The notes beneath the pieces are model-generated. The model had not been told where the DNA came from and searched no databases. It worked only from the letters and a program-made list of their open reading frames with translations. A program made the position numbers and the translations under genes. Of a stretch of DNA of 39,119 nt, positions 12,979-39,119 are shown in pieces; the stretch's first letter is position 1, and each line of letters begins with the position of its first letter. Source of the DNA: a virus. The DNA lies in the IMG/VR virus record IMGVR_UViG_3300032236_001418, positions 1-39,119 of that record; one strand, given 5' to 3'.

Positions 12979-13006
12979 AAAATAATAGGCTCCGAAGAGC
13001 CTATTA
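12979..13006 (-). terminator. Intrinsic terminator after tmRNA
   Basis: A 10-bp stem TAATAGGCTC / GAGCCTATTA closed by a UUCG tetraloop on the minus strand, followed by ATTTTG. Lies directly after the tmRNA coding piece. Confidence 0.8.
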
Positions 13007-13009
13007 CTG

Positions 13010-13300
13010 GTGGGTTATTTTACAGAGTCTGTCCTACTCCGACACAGCCTTATGCGGCTAGTGCGAATACCTCATCATTGGCATTTATAGTTTTTGCTTG
13101 GATTACGTCCATCGCCTTTCGTGTAGATCCTGTCAATACTTATTGCCACGTCGAACCTAATTCGGGCCCATCAAAAGCACACTTGGAAGATTTATTAACC
13201 GCTGACTATTACTCTTCCCCAGCGTCACTACAGTATGCTTTTGGTGGACCCGGGGGAGAACTGCCCTCCCCGTCCGCAACACCTTTCTCTCTAGGCATTA
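13010..13300 (-). ncRNA. ssrA: tmRNA, circularly permuted (two-piece) gene
   Basis: Read on the minus strand. First comes a T-arm-like stem (GGGGAG/CTCCCC, 13253-13271), then the acceptor 3' strand CGGGTCC (13246-13252) with A73 and CCA (13242-13245). An intervening segment follows, then the acceptor 5' strand GGGCCCG (13163-13169), then TTAGGTTCGACG, the tmRNA D-region signature. The two strands pair over 7 bp with G3-U70, the alanine identity pair. The tag frame then runs through 13095-13050 and encodes AKTINANDEVFALAA and TAA (resume codon probably GCA at 13095-13097). Acceptor before tag is the order of permuted two-piece tmRNAs, known in alpha- and some betaproteobacteria and cyanobacteria. 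The ANDExxALAA tag favours a beta/gamma source. Outer ends are approximate. Confidence 0.88.
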
Positions 13301-13312
13301 AACTACAATTCT

Positions 13313-13630
13313 TTACTGGCGCACCAAAACTTCTTGCGATACGCCATTTACTATCATGATTTGTTTAGTATACGCTACTCCGTCAATAATCACAACCTGT
13401 GGCTGATCTACAACAACGGGTTGCTGAATATAAACCGGCTGTTGAACCACCACTGGAGCAGGACGAGTTAGTCCATATACTACAGCACCGCCGATCACAG
13501 CAGGTGCTACCCAACCCCAACCACCACCTCTATAAGGATGGTGATCAAAGTGTCTCATACCATAATGATGCTGTGCTGCTACAGGTGCGGACAGTAAACC
13601 AATAAATGCTGCTGCGATAATGTTTTTCAT
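13313..13630 (-). CDS. Small secreted Gly/His/Val-rich protein
   Basis: A 105-residue protein starting at the ATG at 13630 (AGGGA upstream): signal peptide MKNIIAAAFIGLLSAPVAA, then a His/Gly/Trp-rich segment (HHYGMRHFDHHPYRGGGWGW), a hydrophobic Gly-rich stretch, repeated QQPVV elements and a C-terminal IIDGVAYTKQIMIVNG. It resembles host outer-membrane-associated small proteins with glycine-zipper segments. It lies between a structured leader and the tmRNA and may be co-transcribed with it. Function unknown; the His cluster could bind metal. Confidence 0.7.
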   Translation of the reverse strand: MKNIIAAAFIGLLSAPVAAQHHYGMRHFDHHPYRGGGWGWVAPAVIGGAVVYGLTRPAPVVVQQPVYIQQPVVVDQPQVVIIDGVAYTKQIMIVNGVSQEVLVRQ

Positions 13631-16245: not shown

Positions 16246-17346
16246 TTATAAATCTGGAAGTTCTTCATATAGAACCTGATCTGACATGGCGCCAATTACA
16301 TAGTTTGTTGATTCGGTTTCTTGAAGAGCTGATTGTTTTTTACCAATATTAACGTGTTTGTTAAACCACGGAATAGGACTACTACGGGGGTGGTCTGCTA
16401 GATACTTAATACCTATATCTTTAAGACGAGTAAATGCTGTATAGTCTACAAAATCTTTAAGAATAGCAGCATTAAGCCCGATAACTACTCCTTTCTTAAA
16501 AAGAAAATCGGCCCAGGCTTTTTCTTCAGCAATAACTTCCATATACATAGCATACACTTCATCTCGGCAAGAGTCAACAATGCTAGCAAATCTTTCGTCA
16601 TCTTTTACTACATTATTGATTAGCCAAGCGGTCCATTCTGCATGTAGTATTTCGTCTTGTAAGATTAGACTGATAATATTTCCATTACCAATAAAGATGC
16701 GATTCTCTACCATGGCCAAACTAGTAGCAAAACTAACCATAAAACGTAATGCTTCTAGCGCATAACTGGCGTTCAGTGCCAACCAAATGGCTCGAATATG
16801 ATCTTCATCGTTAACTTCTTGTCCAATTTCAAGTAGGCAATTTAATTTATGTAATTGATCATAATAACGACCAATGTTTGCTGCCATTACAACAATTTCT
16901 GTGGTGTCGTGAATTTTATTGAATTCTTCTTTAGGCACGCCGTATACATTACGAATAATGTGGCTATAGCTCTTGCTGTGAATATTTGTTTCGAAGAAAC
17001 TCCAATTGCTGACCAGTGCTTCCAACTCTGGAATACTGATAACAGGATTAAACACCTGTGCTGGAGCACGACCTTGAATACTGTCTAGTGCAGTTTGACG
17101 AAGAAGATTGCTGGTAAAGATATGTTTAATAGCATCACTGGATTCTTTATGATCCATTTTGTCTTTGGTTAAACTGATTTCCTCCGGAACCCAAAAGAAC
17201 CCACGGGCTAGGGATTCGAATAGTTGAATCTTATTATATTTTACTTCCTCAAATCGTTGAACTGTTACCGGGCCTTCTGGATCCAAAAACATCTTACGTT
17301 TTAGATAATTTGTTTGTTTTCGAAGATCGTATTGTGCTCTACTCAT
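16246..17346 (-). CDS. nrdB: Ribonucleotide reductase class Ia, beta subunit
   Basis: A 366-residue R2 subunit that holds the diiron-tyrosyl radical cofactor. Ligand motifs: D88 in LDSIQGR, E119 and H123 in FFETNIHSKSY with the radical Tyr at 127, the Glu in YALEALRFMVSF, and E/H in DEILHAEW. The spacing E119-x3-H123 is one residue longer than E-x2-H in E. coli NrdB (ETIHSRSY). The C-terminus YEELPDL is the usual docking tail for NrdA. A homing endonuclease gene separates it from nrdA and overlaps its start. Confidence 0.95.
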   Translation of the reverse strand: MSRAQYDLRKQTNYLKRKMFLDPEGPVTVQRFEEVKYNKIQLFESLARGFFWVPEEISLTKDKMDHKESSDAIKHIFTSNLLRQTALDSIQGRAPAQVFNPVISIPELEALVSNWSFFETNIHSKSYSHIIRNVYGVPKEEFNKIHDTTEIVVMAANIGRYYDQLHKLNCLLEIGQEVNDEDHIRAIWLALNASYALEALRFMVSFATSLAMVENRIFIGNGNIISLILQDEILHAEWTAWLINNVVKDDERFASIVDSCRDEVYAMYMEVIAEEKAWADFLFKKGVVIGLNAAILKDFVDYTAFTRLKDIGIKYLADHPRSSPIPWFNKHVNIGKKQSALQETESTNYVIGAMSDQVLYEELPDL

Positions 17347-17992
17347 TATGTATTTTCCTATGATTATCGACGTTTGCCTTAGTTACTAATTTTCCGCATA
17401 CTTCGCAAGAAAATCTCGGACGTTTTAAAGCAGCATTTGATATATTTTTCGAATGAGATTCTGATTTAGGTTTTCTCATTTTAATTTTAGTTTCTTCGGA
17501 TTTTTTAAGTCCCGTTGTCCTCTCTTTAATTAATTCTTTGACATGATCCGGAGTTGGAATACCTTTATTCCAGCTAGGAGTTCCCCTTGGAATATTTTTT
17601 CCTATATTCCACGGAATTCTCCCTTTCATTTTTAATTTAGATTCTTGAGTATGAGTTTTTCCTGCCATACTAAATATTTTTTGATTCTTTTCTTTACTAA
17701 TATAATATTTGTTAAGACATAATGGATTATCAATATTATTTTTTATATATTCTTGCTCGGTCCAATATACCAATTCAACATCTAAATTAGTATAAACAAT
17801 TTTAACTTCAAAGTTATCTTCTTGTTCTCGTAATTTTTTTATTTTAACAGAGGATGTAAAATATATTTCCCACAAATCGTTTTCTGGAAATCTATTTTCG
17901 TTAATGTTAGCAGATCGAAAACCGTAGTAAAACTTGCCGGTCGGTATATGCCTAATATAATAGACATAGGCGGGAATAGTATGTAAATACAT
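17339..17992 (-). CDS. GIY-YIG homing endonuclease between nrdA and nrdB
   Basis: A 217-residue free-standing homing endonuclease. The start is set at the ATG at 17992, with GAGGAG 9 nt upstream; ATGs further upstream lie within the conserved leader. The GIY-YIG core is YVYYIRHIPTGKFYYGFR at about residues 8-25, then a catalytic Glu region (LVYWTEQEYIKNN), NUMOD3 repeats (GKTHTQESKLKMKG, WNKGIP, GLKKSEETKIKM) and a C-terminal zinc finger FSCEVCGKL-x8-H-x3-H. It sits between nrdA and nrdB, a known homing hot spot in T4-like phages. Both flanking genes are intact. Confidence 0.9.
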   Translation of the reverse strand: MYLHTIPAYVYYIRHIPTGKFYYGFRSANINENRFPENDLWEIYFTSSVKIKKLREQEDNFEVKIVYTNLDVELVYWTEQEYIKNNIDNPLCLNKYYISKEKNQKIFSMAGKTHTQESKLKMKGRIPWNIGKNIPRGTPSWNKGIPTPDHVKELIKERTTGLKKSEETKIKMRKPKSESHSKNISNAALKRPRFSCEVCGKLVTKANVDNHRKIHNE

Positions 17993-18062
17993 TTGCTGTA
18001 ACTCCTCACAGTTATAGAGCCGGTGGATATTGTCAGTATCGCGATCGGCACCTTTATTTATC
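17993..18062 (-). promoter_or_regulatory. Conserved homing-endonuclease leader (copy 1) with late element GATAAATA
   Basis: GATAAATA (18055-18062), then GTGCCGATCGCGATAC, ATATCCACCGGCTCT, AAC, and GAGGAG before the ATG. Nearly the same series precedes the other two homing endonuclease genes (22504-22572 and 31522-31592). A stem GCCGAT / ACCGGC can form. Confidence 0.75.
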
Positions 18063-22503: not shown

Positions 22504-22572
22504 TATAAATATCTGTGCCGGTCGCGATACGCCAATATCCACCGACTCTAACGCTTACAAGGAGCATCAGCC
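22504..22572 (+). promoter_or_regulatory. Conserved homing-endonuclease leader (copy 2) with late element TATAAATA
   Basis: TATAAATA (22504-22511), then GTGCCGGTCGCGATAC, AATATCCACCGACTCTAAC, and AAGGAG before the ATG at 22573. A stem GCCGGT / ACCGAC can form. Confidence 0.75.
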
Positions 22573-23235
22573 ATGATATTTATTGACAACAAATATACCC
22601 GTTGGTATTATAACATCATAACCAACGCCAAGTCTCGTACCCCCACAGGATATACAGAGAAGCATCATATTATACCCAAATCTTGTGGAGGGGATAATTC
22701 GAAGGAAAACCTAGTTATATTGACCGCTAAAGAACATTTTATTTGTCATTTACTATTAACCAAATCCGTTACTGAAGATTATAGATCTAAAATGATATAT
22801 GCCTTCCATGGGTTAAGGGCAAAACAACCAAAACAGATTAGATACAGAAGTGGATTGGAGGTTAATTCATCACTTTATCAAAAGATCAGGGAAGAATTGA
22901 GCCTAATCAAAAAAGGGAAAGAACCGTGGAACAAAGGAAAAGTTGGAGTTCAGGTAGCATGGAACAAAGGGATATCTTCATCTTCTGAAACTAAACAGAA
23001 AATTAAAGAAGCTCGATCAAAACAAGATATGAGTTATCGTAAAGGCGTTTCTCCTAGTATTGAACAACGAGAGAAAATAAGTCAAACTCTTAAAGGTAAT
23101 ACTCCGTGGAATAAAGGAAAACAAGGAACTGGGTTCGGTGATACAAATATTATTAATCCTATGAAAAATCCAGAGTCTATTAAGAAGATGCTAGAAACAA
23201 GAAGAATTAATAAAGAAAAAAAGTTATCTAGTTAA
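22573..23235 (+). CDS. HNH homing endonuclease
   Basis: A 220-residue free-standing nuclease on the plus strand, opposite its neighbours, which marks it as an insertion. The HNH core is EKHHIIPKSCGGDNSKENLV followed by ILTAKEHFICH at about residues 28-60. It is followed by NUMOD3-like DNA-binding repeats (EPWNKGKVG, AWNKGISSSSETKQKIKEA, TPWNKGKQG). AAGGAG sits 8 nt before the ATG. It is convergent with the exonuclease gene, overlapping it by 12 nt. Confidence 0.9.
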   Translation: MIFIDNKYTRWYYNIITNAKSRTPTGYTEKHHIIPKSCGGDNSKENLVILTAKEHFICHLLLTKSVTEDYRSKMIYAFHGLRAKQPKQIRYRSGLEVNSSLYQKIREELSLIKKGKEPWNKGKVGVQVAWNKGISSSSETKQKIKEARSKQDMSYRKGVSPSIEQREKISQTLKGNTPWNKGKQGTGFGDTNIINPMKNPESIKKMLETRRINKEKKLSS

Positions 23236-30834: not shown

Positions 30835-31521
30835 TTAGGGTTGACTTTGTGTTTTACAATTATTTCCATGCCACCTATTAAAATTTCCTAGACTAATTTG
30901 TTTTAAACAATGAGGACATTCTAGTTTCGCTGGAGTTTTTCCTTTGTTAGGGCTTATTTTACCAAACATAGGGTTATTAATCCCACTTACTTTTGCTTTT
31001 GCCCTATCATTCCATTTCCATTTGCCCTTGACTCCTTTATTAGGATGAGTTTTTCCATACATAGGATTGTTTGAGCCAGATACATCGGCATGATTTTTTG
31101 ACATAAGATGCCGAGTTTCTTCGCTATGGCTTTTTTGATAAAAAGAATTATTTTTTCCAGTTCTACTTTGTTTAAATTCTGTTGTCCGTTTCTTACCTCG
31201 ATTTTTTTCTGCTATTCGTGCTACAATGGTAGGGTCAGGAATATATCCTGCTACACCGTCCCCGCCATCTGTCATATTTCGGAGTATCCCGGTGCCTATA
31301 TCGATTCTTCCATGTTCTTTTATCAGATTTATCTCCAAGGCAATTGCTTCCTCTTCTGATAAACAGTCAAAAAGTATCTGGATATTATTTAAATTATCGG
31401 GTAAAAGATCGGTTCCGTTCTTCCTTTTATGAGACACCCAGGCCCTGTCATTTTTTCCTTTACCTATATAGTAAGGTGTTCGATCTTCTCGAAGGTACTG
31501 ATAGACATAATAAATATTCAT
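30835..31521 (-). CDS. GIY-YIG homing endonuclease (second)
   Basis: A 228-residue nuclease starting at the ATG at 31521 with AAGGA upstream (MNIYYVYQYLREDRTPYYIG). The GIY-YIG core spans residues 3-25, and EEEAIALEINLIKEHG holds the catalytic Glu. NUMOD3 repeats follow (GKNNSFYQKSHSEETRHLMS, NNPMYGKTHPNKG, NNPMFGKISPNKG), and a C-terminal zinc finger LECPHCLKQ-x10-H-x4-C. It lies antisense between two plus-strand genes, as expected for an insertion. It shares the conserved leader with the other two homing endonucleases. Confidence 0.9.
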   Translation of the reverse strand: MNIYYVYQYLREDRTPYYIGKGKNDRAWVSHKRKNGTDLLPDNLNNIQILFDCLSEEEAIALEINLIKEHGRIDIGTGILRNMTDGGDGVAGYIPDPTIVARIAEKNRGKKRTTEFKQSRTGKNNSFYQKSHSEETRHLMSKNHADVSGSNNPMYGKTHPNKGVKGKWKWNDRAKAKVSGINNPMFGKISPNKGKTPAKLECPHCLKQISLGNFNRWHGNNCKTQSQP

Positions 31522-31592
31522 TGCTGATAGTTCCTTATAAACTGTTAGAGTCAGTGGATGGTGGTACATCGCGACTGGCACTTTTATTTATC
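31522..31592 (-). promoter_or_regulatory. Conserved homing-endonuclease leader (copy 3) with late element GATAAATA
   Basis: GATAAATA (31585-31592), GTGCCAGTCGCGAT, ATCCACTGACTCTAAC, AAGGA, then the ATG. Stem GCCAGT / ACTGAC: the A-U pair here replaces the G-C pair of copy 2. Confidence 0.75.
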
Positions 31593-34949: not shown

Positions 34950-37900
34950 TTACGACCAATTACCTGTAGCAGAATTAGCACCAATCGGTCCTATTGCTAT
35001 TAATTTAACATATGATCCAGCAAATACGGTCCAGACAGGCGATCCGCCTTGGTCCTGTGATACCATAAAGTTTACATTCGTTCCTGTAGTCACATCGATA
35101 GTACCGTAGATTATAGTATGTTGGAATCCGTTAGCTAAATCACCAATACCATTTTGGGCAACAATATTTGTACCGGTAGCATTGTAACTCATCATAGTTA
35201 TACCAGCAGTATATCCATCAATTGTTGTAGTTTTATTACTTTGTGCAGTATAGTTGTGTTGTGCTATACCTGTACTTGTTGATAAAGCATAACTCATCAC
35301 ACCGCTAGGCTTATTAAATTGTGTATTAAACAATAATTCATATTGATATCGAGTATTCGATTGTAGGCTAACACCATTTGATAATCCAAATAAACTGTAT
35401 GAAGTATTTTGTCCACCACCTATGGTTCGTGAACCGTTCAATATATAAGTTAATTGATTGGTTATTGTACTGCCATAAGTTACATTATTTTGTGTTGTCC
35501 AAACAGTAACAGCACCCGTCGATGTTGATACTGCCGTGCCTGTACCTGCTGTAATACTAGTAACACCGTTTACGCCCGCTGGGCCTTGTGGTCCTTGTGG
35601 TCCTGCTACATTACTTACACCACTCGGTCCCTGTGGTCCCTGTGGCCCGGTGACTCCCTGAGGTCCTTGAGCACCAGCAACTCCTTGTGGTCCTGTATTA
35701 CCAGTTGGACCTTGAGGACCGGTAACTCCTTGTGGTCCTGTATTACCAGTTGGACCTTGAGGACCGGTAACTCCTTGTGGTCCCTGTGGCCCGGTGACTC
35801 CCTGTGGTCCTGTATTACCAGTTGGACCTTGAGCACCAGCAACTCCCTGTGGTCCTGTATTACCAGTTGGACCTTGTGGTCCGGTAACTCCTTGTGGTCC
35901 TTGCGGTCCTTGAGCACCGGCGACTCCCTGTGGTCCTTGCGGCCCAGTAACACCTCGCGGGCCTTGAGCACCAACTACCCCCTGCGGTCCCTGCGGACCG
36001 GTAATACCTACTCCAGTTGGACCTTGTGGTCCTGTATTACCAGTTGGACCTTGAGGACCGGTAACTCCTTGTGGCCCATAACTACCATCAATCCATACTG
36101 TGACATCACCGGTGCTGGTACTGACATGTGTACCTGTGCCAGCAAATATTCTGGTAACAGCGTTGGTACTGGTAAAGGCTGTGATTTGTCTAGTATTGTC
36201 TTGGAATGTGATGCCAAGATTGGTAGTGGTATTGCTAGCAGGTAATGTCAATCCAGTTGTATCAATTTGCGCCGATAGAGTTCTTTGTGCCTGTCCAATA
36301 GGACTAGTATAGAATTTTATAGCAGAACCAATAGAACCGGAAGTATAATTTTCCTTGGCTACAAATTCTATACTATGCGGACTACCGCCAGTATTAACTG
36401 TAAGATAGTTAGCCATACTATAACCAATAGCACTGAGTCTAAACAGTACATCACCGGCTTGTGTATTTGTAGGCGATGACGCTGTTCCTCTCGCTCCTCG
36501 ACCTGTAATCGACGCAGAGCCAGTGGCATAACTAGTACCAAATCCATCCAGTGTGATTTTACCGGCAAGATTGTCATTGCCGGTAATGTGTAGCATATTA
36601 CCGGCACCGCTTACTAACTGATAACTACCATCACTGCTGCCCACAATGTTTAGTGCGCCAGCATCCTGTAAAGGTATGTTAGGAGTGCGTATGCTTACTC
36701 TACCATTACGGTCTATAGTAAATGCCGCTGTACTAGCAGTAGTGTTAACCTGTATAGGACGATTGATAACAAAAGAGCCGGTAGCAGTAGTTGTACCAAG
36801 GATAATATCTCGAGCAGGGTTGGCAATTTTAATTTGATTATCGCGGAATGTGAATTCACCAACCTGTAAACCTACGCCACCTTGTAAGTATACAACACCA
36901 TCTCGGGCACCAATGGCAGTATCAGTGCCCAGTGTTTCATCCAATATGTAGATAGTACCAGCACCTACCCAGACATGACGCCAACGCTTACCTGGACTGC
37001 CTAAATCCCATTGGTTGTTGGTCGATGGTATAACAGCACCGTTGGCAATAATATTGCCGCCTATGCCAGGAAATAACCCAATGTCTGTAATCGGTTGTGT
37101 GGTAATAGCAAGATTAGCGTTTAGAGTATTACGCCCAACTAAAACCGTACTTCCCGGAGTGGGTAATGTTGGATTAAGTCCATACTCACTGTAATCGCTA
37201 TAGCCAACGACATAGTTTGTATATGTTCCGGTCCCAACCGATAAGACCACAGTACCTGTGAAACCCAATGATCCGCCGGGTAATATATTAGGTATGCCGG
37301 CACCACTTAGGATATCTCCTACTTGTAGAGCAGGATCGGGTGTTTGTGTAAATTCATAAACAGCATACGGTGCCGGAATACCATTAGTAATACCATATTC
37401 ACCCACTGTTAATGTATCAGTCGATGTATGGCTGTAACTAACCACATTGGTCAAAGTCAGCGATGCCAAGGTATAGATACTGGCAGTATTACTGGCCAAA
37501 ATAGTTCCAACTGGAATGTGTAATGAATCTACACTGACACTACCGTTACCTTGGTTTAAACTCAGTGTAGAACTGTTTAAAGCCTGTATGTTGTCAACAT
37601 TAAAACTGGTTGCGGTAAAGGTGGCTACAATACTGTCTGTGGTATCCGTTGGACCCACAAAGAATGTAATATTGCTGGCTGTAGTACCAACGGCTAAGTT
37701 TCCAGCATCTACATAAACATATGCGTCACCGGCACCGTTGATAACCCAGGTACCGGTGCTGTAACCAGTACTGTTAATACCCATATCAATAAAGTGGCTG
37801 CTGTCACTGCCATCATCTGCGGTAACTACAAAATCGCCCGATGCGTAAGGATCGCTACTGTGATTTTGTAATATGACCTGTGTGTATTCATTGGCATTGG

Positions 37901-39119
37901 TATCTATCTGTAATACAGCATTGGTATAGGTCTGTGCTAGATTCACACTACCAAAGTTGGCCTGACCAGTGACGATTAACTTAGACAGTGTGCTGGTAGT
38001 GGCTACGAGATGCTCGGTTTGGAATCCAGTAGTACTGTCTGTAAACCAATAGTCGTTACCATTGTTATAGTTCCATAATAACTTAACTTCACCAGTAGGG
38101 CTTGTAGCAGTGCTGCCTAATACTATTCCACCTTGATTTATTTGACTGACATTGGTGGCTGTTTGTGCTAGATATATTCTATAACCTTCAACAGTGCTGG
38201 GAATAGCATTAGTGTATGTGCCATTAACTGTGATATTATTAACTGTAATACTGTCAAAACTCACGCTGGCTGTGCTGGCAATATTCTGTGGTATACTGAC
38301 AGTACCATTGGTGTCGACATTAATATTATCGCCTACAATCACACTGCCGAGTGCTGATTTAGATGCCGGAACATTTGGTCCTATTGGTCCTTGTGGTCCA
38401 GTGACTCCTTGAGGTCCCTGCGGCCCGGTAACACCCTGCGGTCCTTGTGGTCCAGTGACACCTTGCGGTCCTTGTGGCCCGGGAATATCGCTAACTCCAC
38501 TAGGGCCTTGCGGTCCCTGCGGTCCAGTTACTCCTTGTGGTCCCTGTGGTCCTGTATCGCCTTGCGGTCCTTGAGGTCCTGTATCGCCTTGCGGTCCTTG
38601 CGGTCCGATGTCGCCTTGTGGTCCCTGTGGTCCGATGTCTCCCTGGGGTCCCTGCGGTCCCTGCGGTCCTGTATCGCCTTGCGGTCCCTGCGGTCCTGTA
38701 TCGCCTTGCGGTCCCTGCGGTCCTGTATCGCCTTGTGGCCCTTGTGGTCCTGTATCGCCTTGCGGTCCCTGTGGTCCGATGTCGCCTTGTGGTCCCTGCG
38801 GTCCTTGTGGTCCGATATCTCCTTGAGGTCCTTGTGGTCCTGTGTCGCCTTGTGGACCTTGTGGTCCTTGAGCACCAGTATCTCCCTGCGGTCCCTGTGG
38901 TCCTTGTGGTCCGATATCTCCTTGAGGTCCTTGTGGTCCTGTATCGCCTTGCGGTCCTTGTGGCCCTGTATCGCCTTGCGGTCCTTGAGGTCCTGTATCG
39001 CCTTGTGGTCCCTGTGGTCCTGTATCGCCTTGTGGTCCCTGTGGTCCTGTATCGCCTTGTGGTCCCTGTGGTCCTGTATCGCCTTGTGGTCCCTGTGGTC
39101 CTGTATCGCCTTGTGGTCC
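34950..39119 (-). CDS. Giant collagen-repeat tail fibre (N-terminus beyond window)
   Basis: The frame is open from the stop at 34950 to the right edge, about 1389 residues. The GTG at 38342 lies in the middle of the frame and is not the start. Going N to C: a long GPQG(D/V)TGPQGPQG collagen-like block (39119 to about 38370), a large beta-rich region of about 750 residues with Ser/Thr-rich strands (38340-36090), a second collagen block (about 36075-35584), and a roughly 210-residue tip ending [14 protein letters not shown]. Collagen-like Gly-Pro-Gln triplets form trimeric rods in phage fibres; the tip probably binds the receptor. Confidence 0.9.
35584..36075 (-). repeat. Collagen-coding repeat block 2
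   Basis: Imperfect 9-nt-based repeats coding Gly-Pro-Gln, Gly-Val-Thr/Ala and Gly-Asn-Thr triplets. Higher-order units such as [15 protein letters not shown] recur. Confidence 0.85.
38372..39119 (-). repeat. Collagen-coding repeat block 1 with perfect 27-bp array at the edge
   Basis: 9/18/27-nt repeats coding GPQGPQGDT. From 39001 to 39119 there are 4.4 exact copies of a 27-bp unit (ccttgtggtccctgtggt plus cctgtatcg), so the window end may reflect an assembly break or a length-variable array. Confidence 0.9.

Follow-up and report, generated by a model that had tools for sequence, protein, structure and literature searches.

Three homing endonuclease genes with a common leader

We analyzed a stretch of 39,119 nt (IMG/VR record IMGVR_UViG_3300032236_001418, positions 1 to 39,119), referred to here as the window. 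The window is from a T4-like phage whose nrdA is closest to those of Xanthomonas and Stenotrophomonas myophages (53-60% identity). It contains three homing endonuclease genes. The initial annotation described a conserved leader in front of each (17993-18062, 22504-22572 and 31522-31592), with the same blocks in the same order, and our check of the sequence agreed. The features of the three loci are listed below; P3 and P1/P2 are hairpins of a predicted antisense RNA, and R1 is our covariance model of it.

17339..17992, minus strand: homing endonuclease 1 (GIY-YIG, SegE-like, 217 aa), between nrdA and nrdB (phrog_314; nrdA and nrdB by Pfam)
18055..18061, minus strand: late-promoter box ATAAATA of nuclease 1, predicted +1 at 18049 (sequence; 5-nt spacing to the stem in 100/108 leaders)
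17983..17989, plus strand: antisense late-promoter-like box GTAAATA inside the nuclease 1 ORF, predicted +1 at 17995 (sequence; frame-independent conservation; spacing)
17995..18061, plus strand: predicted antisense structured RNA, copy 1, with P3 at 17996-18017, P1/P2 at 18019-18049 and a U-rich tail at 18050-18061 (R1 87.4 bits; fold -19.2 kcal/mol, z -2.6)
22573..23235, plus strand: homing endonuclease 2 (HNH and NUMOD3, 220 aa), oriented opposite to both neighbors (Pfam NUMOD3/HNH; phrog_655)
22505..22511, plus strand: late-promoter box ATAAATA of nuclease 2, predicted +1 at 22517 (sequence; spacing)
22577..22583, minus strand: antisense late-promoter-like box ATAAATA inside the nuclease 2 ORF, predicted +1 at 22571 (sequence; frame-independent conservation; spacing)
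22505..22571, minus strand: predicted antisense structured RNA, copy 2, with P3 at 22548-22570, P1/P2 at 22517-22546 and a tail at 22505-22516 (R1 81.7 bits; fold -20.1 kcal/mol, z only -0.6)
30835..31521, minus strand: homing endonuclease 3 (GIY-YIG and NUMOD3, 228 aa), oriented opposite to both neighbors (Pfam NUMOD3; MNIYYVYQYLR...YYIGKG)
31585..31591, minus strand: late-promoter box ATAAATA of nuclease 3, predicted +1 at 31579 (sequence; spacing)
31510..31516, plus strand: antisense late-promoter-like box ATAAATA inside the nuclease 3 ORF, predicted +1 near 31522-31523 (sequence; frame-independent conservation; spacing)
31523..31591, plus strand: predicted antisense structured RNA, copy 3, with P3 at 31524-31548, P1/P2 at 31550-31579 and a tail at 31580-31591 (R1 84.8 bits; fold -20.5 kcal/mol, z -2.3)

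We found ATAAATANNNGTGCCRRTCGCGAT, with up to three mismatches allowed, at exactly three places in the 39-kb contig, each before a homing endonuclease. The reversed control of this sequence had no match in the contig, and ATCCACYGRCTCT matched perfectly at the same three leaders. The covariance model, built from 85 relatives that include the three window copies themselves, also found only these leaders in the window (82-87 bits, E about 1e-27 to 1e-29). The leader was missing at the other ATAAATA boxes of the window. DNA similarity among the three copies ended at the leader, except for the motif TATTTAY a few bases inside each ORF. The three nucleases are unrelated or at most distant relatives, and not recent duplicates: BLASTP gave no significant match between nucleases 1 and 3 or between 3 and 2, and the only part shared by nucleases 1 and 2 was a NUMOD3-like patch of 42 residues.

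Two other features of the window were noted. A phage-borne permuted tmRNA of the betaproteobacterial type lies at 12980-13341 on the minus strand (RF04321, 128 bits; RF01850, 108 bits). Its tag reads ANDEVFALAA, it was missed by ARAGORN, and its type hints at a betaproteobacterial host. At 34950-38342, also on the minus strand, is a gene for a protein of 1130 aa with collagen-like repeats that is probably a tail-fibre protein.

The structured RNA is antisense to the nuclease gene

The pairing pattern in helix P1 distinguishes the two strands. Read on the nuclease strand, P1 in 108 distinct leaders had 458 Watson-Crick cells, 82 A.C cells and no G.U. Read on the antisense strand, the same 82 exceptions were all G.U and none was A.C. 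RNA helices tolerate G.U and not A.C. Judged by these wobble pairs, the structured strand is the antisense strand of the nuclease gene. Predicted folds agreed: the antisense strand folded better for P3 in 102, for P1/P2 in 96 and for the whole element in 103 of the 108 leaders, with a mean for the whole element of -20.2 kcal/mol compared with -14.0 kcal/mol for the sense strand. The sense folds of the three window copies were no better than those of shuffled sequences (z of -0.8, +0.3 and -0.3). Since the antisense z of copy 2 was also only modest, fold energies of single sequences are insufficient alone.

Covariation was strong on the antisense strand. In 85 aligned antisense sequences, 93.8% of the pairs were standard (100% in P1 and P2), and 235 cells were doubly changed, compared to 64 +/- 12 in shuffles. 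Controls in which the structure was slid along the alignment were paired at most 48%. With divergent copies included (116 distinct sequences), 426 cells were doubly changed compared to 103, and P1 and P2 were 100% and 98.7% paired; this alignment was made to the model and hence leans toward its structure. These statistics are for 85 to 116 distinct sequences from metagenomic contigs that are partly near-duplicates. In divergent copies P2 was replaced wholesale, from GAUN/NAUC to GGAAU/AUUCC, GAGA/UCUC or GGUAU/AUACC.

The antisense RNA thus drawn has hairpin P3, then hairpin P1/P2 with two invariant bulged Gs, and then a U-rich tail. The bridge pair between P1 and P2 varies among G-C, G-U and A-U, and the two Gs that flank it were invariant in 121 of 121 sequences. 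The P3 loop complements the Shine-Dalgarno sequence of the nuclease (CCUU/UCC), and 81 of 85 sequences had such an anti-SD loop, which is rich in C and U. The initial annotation had proposed a covarying stem in the leader. The covariation is real, as both alignments indicate, and the RNA structure belongs to the opposite strand; the A.C "mismatches" in the stem as first drawn are a consequence of reading the wrong strand. The data do not support a hairpin in the leader of the nuclease mRNA, since wobble pattern, covariation and folds all point to the antisense strand. Nor did we find an mRNA hairpin, of the kind known for I-TevI, that would hide the nuclease ribosome-binding site; sense folds were weak.

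Late-promoter boxes face each other across the leader

We found that the element is bounded by two promoter-like boxes. In 100 of 108 leaders, 5 nt separated the end of the outer box (NTAAATA) from the first base of P1. It lies directly upstream of the nuclease, as the late promoter of I-TevI-type genes does, and reads ATAAATA in all three window copies; elsewhere it is usual and can be degenerate (L148, L015, L240, L253). The inner box went unnoticed in the first description of the element. It appears inside the nuclease ORF as TATTTAY, sometimes TACTTAT, which is the reverse complement of a late-promoter box (RTAAATA), and it points inward. The late promoters of S-PM2 and T4 are given as NATAAATA/TATAAATA (PMC2984593).

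A motif TA[TC]TTA[TC] was present near the start of 97 of the 104 ORFs listed; roughly one leader in five has ATAAGTA as its inner box instead of ATAAATA. Counting from the first base of the start codon, the motif begins 3, 4, 5 or 8 nt further on, so that all three reading frames are used. Between the motif and the end of P3, the expected start of the RNA, lay 4-6 nt in 99 of 105 leaders (5 nt in 71) regardless of the position of the ATG. Conservation of the inner box is tied to the RNA and not to the protein. The inner box is a candidate for an active promoter.

The RNA would end in the U-rich tail, which is moderately rich in U (mean of 7.5 U in 14). A simple scan for intrinsic terminators did not flag the tail of copies 1 and 3, and we therefore call it terminator-like only. 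Two GIY-YIG genes (L240:1139-1223 and L253:7845-7923) have kept the RNA structure and lost both boxes, and a terminator-like hairpin adjoins.

We also considered a helix, P0, formed between the two TAAATA boxes. Its appeal was that TACTTAT and TATTTAC, variants of the inner box, yield G.U when read on the antisense strand. The one pair in P0 that varies freely had no covariation (60 double changes compared to 62.1 expected, p = 0.91, from an unbiased alignment), and the double changes seen in the 116-sequence set are a product of an alignment fitted to that structure. Copies upstream of gp44 (see below) do not keep the helix. The two boxes are probably better read as promoters than as P0.

A new RNA family in viral metagenomes

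The RNA family has about 270 copies on more than 200 viral contigs, all of them metagenomic. Among 2.9 million viral contigs, 102 and more than 119 stretches matched two degenerate patterns, and 116 matched a third (P1 = GUCCG), part of the last by chance. Many GC-rich pattern matches are also chance, as the covariance model gives them no score. R1 (83 positions, 26 pairs) scored 107, 89 and 80 significant copies in three sets of collected loci; it is home-made and its E-values are rough. About a dozen of its copies were missed by every pattern. Because the patterns fixed the letters of TCGCGAT, ATCCA and CTC, conservation of these motifs is partly imposed; P1, P3 and position 4 of P2 were left free. 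Copies found by the model alone (L109, L132, L148 and others) agree with the core motifs.

The three leaders of the window belong to this family, which is new and absent from Rfam. Curated Rfam models gave no gathering-level match at the leaders, and a permissive search gave only chance-level matches. A description of the leader was not found in the open-access literature, which is weak evidence of novelty. No leader turned up in isolate phages in a blastn search set for distant matches, and the covariance model had no match in the complete genomes of S-SRM01, phiN3, RN05-S and Xanthomonas phage X1. Among five pattern matches in bacterial genomes one was genuine: L305, where leader and nuclease lie on a contig of 3.5 kb assigned to an Erysipelotrichaceae MAG; this is probably phage DNA present as a contaminant. 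A weak P1/P2-like hairpin (E 0.03) with a U6 tail lies before an unrelated 97-aa phage gene at L267:10720-10819.

Leader and nuclease travel together

An ORF lay downstream in 168 of 169 promoter-bearing matches, mostly at 22-25 nt. Almost all copies overlap the 5' end of a gene for a free-standing homing endonuclease, which may be of the GIY-YIG, HNH, DUF723 or NUMOD3-only kind. Among 97 representative proteins, matches were to PHROG 314 (63 members), PHROG 655 (35), NUMOD3 (35), SegE GIY-YIG (15), HNH (10) and one DUF723/zinc-ribbon protein (Pfam, PHROGs and NCBIfam). By motif, downstream proteins comprised 61 GIY-YIG, 16 HNH and 10 others. A 232-aa ORF behind a normal leader (L073:6967-7662) had no Pfam or PHROG match and is possibly an unrecognised nuclease family. 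The leader is not obligatory for such genes, since about two dozen nuclease-like ORFs on the same contigs had no detectable leader. A GIY-YIG homing endonuclease relative in cyanophage S-SRM01 (L197; MW015081.1 62515-63273) is annotated "translation initiation factor 2", and the same holds in B23 and Sf-CH5.

The proposal that the element is portable, structured and accompanies homing endonucleases of unrelated families held up, both in the family matches and in joint gain and loss. Relatives that lack the nuclease also lack the leader. For example, L023 and L147 have matching sequence as far as the last base ahead of ATAAATA, and the join falls at the TAAATA box. At this site the upstream gene takes its stop codon from the box, and the stop codon of the nuclease overlaps the ATG of the following gene. 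Nuclease domains are present or absent at otherwise conserved sites, as expected of free-standing cassettes. By these comparisons, leader and nuclease are gained and lost together.

Leaders also seem to move between cassettes. Identical P1/P2 modules of ~31 nt were found before both HNH and GIY-YIG genes for 8 of 66 distinct modules, including those of window copies 2 and 3. Three different P1/P2 modules were found at a single nuclease start (MYLQNKYTRWYY) whose P3 is identical in each case. Leaders have therefore probably been exchanged between cassettes.

The exceptions to the nuclease association are relics (L065, L224, L254) and one gene, gp44. In the relics (L065:3186-3250, L224:12404-12476 and L254:5469-5541) the nuclease is deleted or fragmentary and the P1/P2 hairpin survives; L065 has lost its nuclease and kept P1/P2. 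We looked for ordinary late genes behind the leader and found none except gp44, where the orientation is reversed, a result in favor of the initial annotation.

Copies upstream of gp44

P3 and P1/P2 lie upstream of the clamp-loader gene gp44 in many contigs, on the sense strand and without a nuclease (L203, L220, L204, L228, L259, L243, L215, L216, L223, L229, L231, L238, L193, L119 and L144). This is the only other gene served by the family. The RNA is a few to 15 nt, mostly 8-15 nt, from gp44. The gp44 proteins differ visibly between lineages, and P1/P2 is nearly unchanged. In two copies (L223, L229) an ATAAATA box is retained, about 6 nt ahead of the RNA; in L238 the hairpin is partly duplicated in tandem. 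The gp44 copies may descend from a nuclease cassette that was lost and left a domesticated relic, or they may be the origin from which cassettes captured the module. In either case the RNA seems to be valuable without the nuclease.

A model for the element, and alternatives

We tentatively favor, as the most probable single reading, that in T4-like phages the element serves as the 5' control region of a mobile cassette encoding a homing endonuclease, with an antisense RNA that represses the nuclease. The outer box would drive the nuclease mRNA. The inner box, in the first nuclease codons, would drive a structured RNA of ~65-75 nt from the opposite strand that ends in the U-rich tail. Facing transcription from these convergent late promoters may limit nuclease mRNA. 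Late in infection, antisense pairing would start at the P3 loop and mask the ribosome-binding site. The structured strand and the inner promoter-like box would fit transcription from the opposite strand across that site. Because the RNA would be fully complementary to the leader, including the ribosome-binding site, we infer that it most likely represses nuclease translation. The basis is sequence comparison: structure, strand, family-wide conservation, association with nucleases, and joint gain and loss. Simple antisense pairing does not account for how deeply P1/P2 and its bulged Gs are conserved, nor for the copies that stand alone before gp44. The bulged Gs and gp44 copies suggest that P1/P2 does something beyond pairing, for example protein binding or protection of the RNA end. 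It is conceivable, and quite unlikely, that within one infected cell the antisense RNA works in trans on all cassettes whose leaders match, so that incoming and resident cassettes silence each other, with one copy domesticated as the gp44 leader.

The RNA might instead be a cis-acting 5' leader or insulator for the next gene on its own strand, with the late promoter and hairpins keeping that neighbor expressed after a cassette lands. In 45 unique loci the nuclease runs opposite to both of its neighbors, which places the RNA on their coding strand; the upstream gene is opposite to the nuclease in 64 of 107 called loci; and the sense-strand position close to gp44 in many lineages, with the box kept in two copies, fits such a role. 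However, the upstream gene is parallel to the nuclease in 43 loci (e.g., nrdA at window copy 1), where no neighbor would be served. Boxes were equally kept in parallel (40/43) and opposed (58/64) loci, with a mean of 7.47 U in both, so the RNA is probably not mainly for the next gene. We regard this role as possible but unlikely. It is also unlikely that a phage or host protein uses the RNA, as a binding site or as a small RNA acting in trans, with P1/P2 and its two bulged Gs as the part recognised, and that mobile nucleases captured it. The invariant Gs flanking a covarying bridge pair, and the survival of P1/P2 at gp44 and in relics (L065, L224) after nuclease loss, fit such a role, but we identified no candidate protein, and the core motifs are partly imposed by the search patterns, even though model-only finds agree.

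A role for the element as DNA, either as single-stranded hairpins or as a protein operator for mobility or autorepression like the I-TevI operator, appears improbable. The outer box does coincide with the cassette boundary, and folded ssDNA also tolerates G.T pairs. However, autorepressor operators are specific to their nuclease, whereas here the same element precedes unrelated ones; compensatory changes with a preference for G.U are typical of RNA; and the gp44 copies are always on the sense strand. Least probable of all is translational control by a sense-strand hairpin of the nuclease mRNA, the arrangement known from T4 I-TevI and Aeh1 mobE. The leader does form the 5' UTR of the nuclease, and late promoters of T4 type plus leader hairpins are the known phage control of homing endonucleases (PMC2988022), but the nuclease strand has A.C in place of G.U throughout and folds no better than shuffles in the window.

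Discussion

In type I toxin-antitoxin systems and plasmid copy control, a small structured antisense RNA lies over the leader or ribosome-binding site of its target within a selfish element. The RNA described here is similar in having a hairpin loop complementary to the Shine-Dalgarno sequence. It differs in that its target would be a homing endonuclease, its promoters are of the phage late type, and repression is predicted. HEARO (OgeuRNA) is an HNH endonuclease-associated RNA, now known as the omega-RNA of IscB. It too is a structured RNA tied to HNH-containing mobile genes, but size, structure and strand differ, there was no Rfam match to our leaders, and the nucleases here are small GIY-YIG and HNH homing enzymes.

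Control by late promoters and RNA hairpins has been reviewed for T4 I-TevI, I-TevII, I-TevIII and segB and for Aeh1 mobE (PMC2988022). As in those cases, a T4-type late promoter lies directly before the homing endonuclease, control would act at the ribosome-binding site, and unrelated families would be controlled alike. In I-TevI-type control, read-through transcripts hide their own ribosome-binding site by folding, whereas here one homologous RNA family, on the antisense strand, appears to be swapped between nucleases. In cyanophage S-PM2, the antisense RNA CfrI covers a homing endonuclease gene and psbA (Millard et al. 2010; PMC2984593). As described, it resembles our RNA in being antisense to a homing endonuclease gene in a lytic T4-like phage. 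It differs in being about 225 nt and in linking the nuclease gene to psbA, and the account in PMC2984593 does not describe a cassette-borne family of structured RNAs.

Our results carry a warning that the structure of a leader may belong to the opposite strand. At each jump, free-standing homing endonucleases have to fit the expression program of a new host. The T4 reviews give solutions gene by gene; here several nuclease families would share one mobile solution, in a few hundred copies. The element adds a new structured RNA family with strong covariation, which may have been domesticated before gp44.
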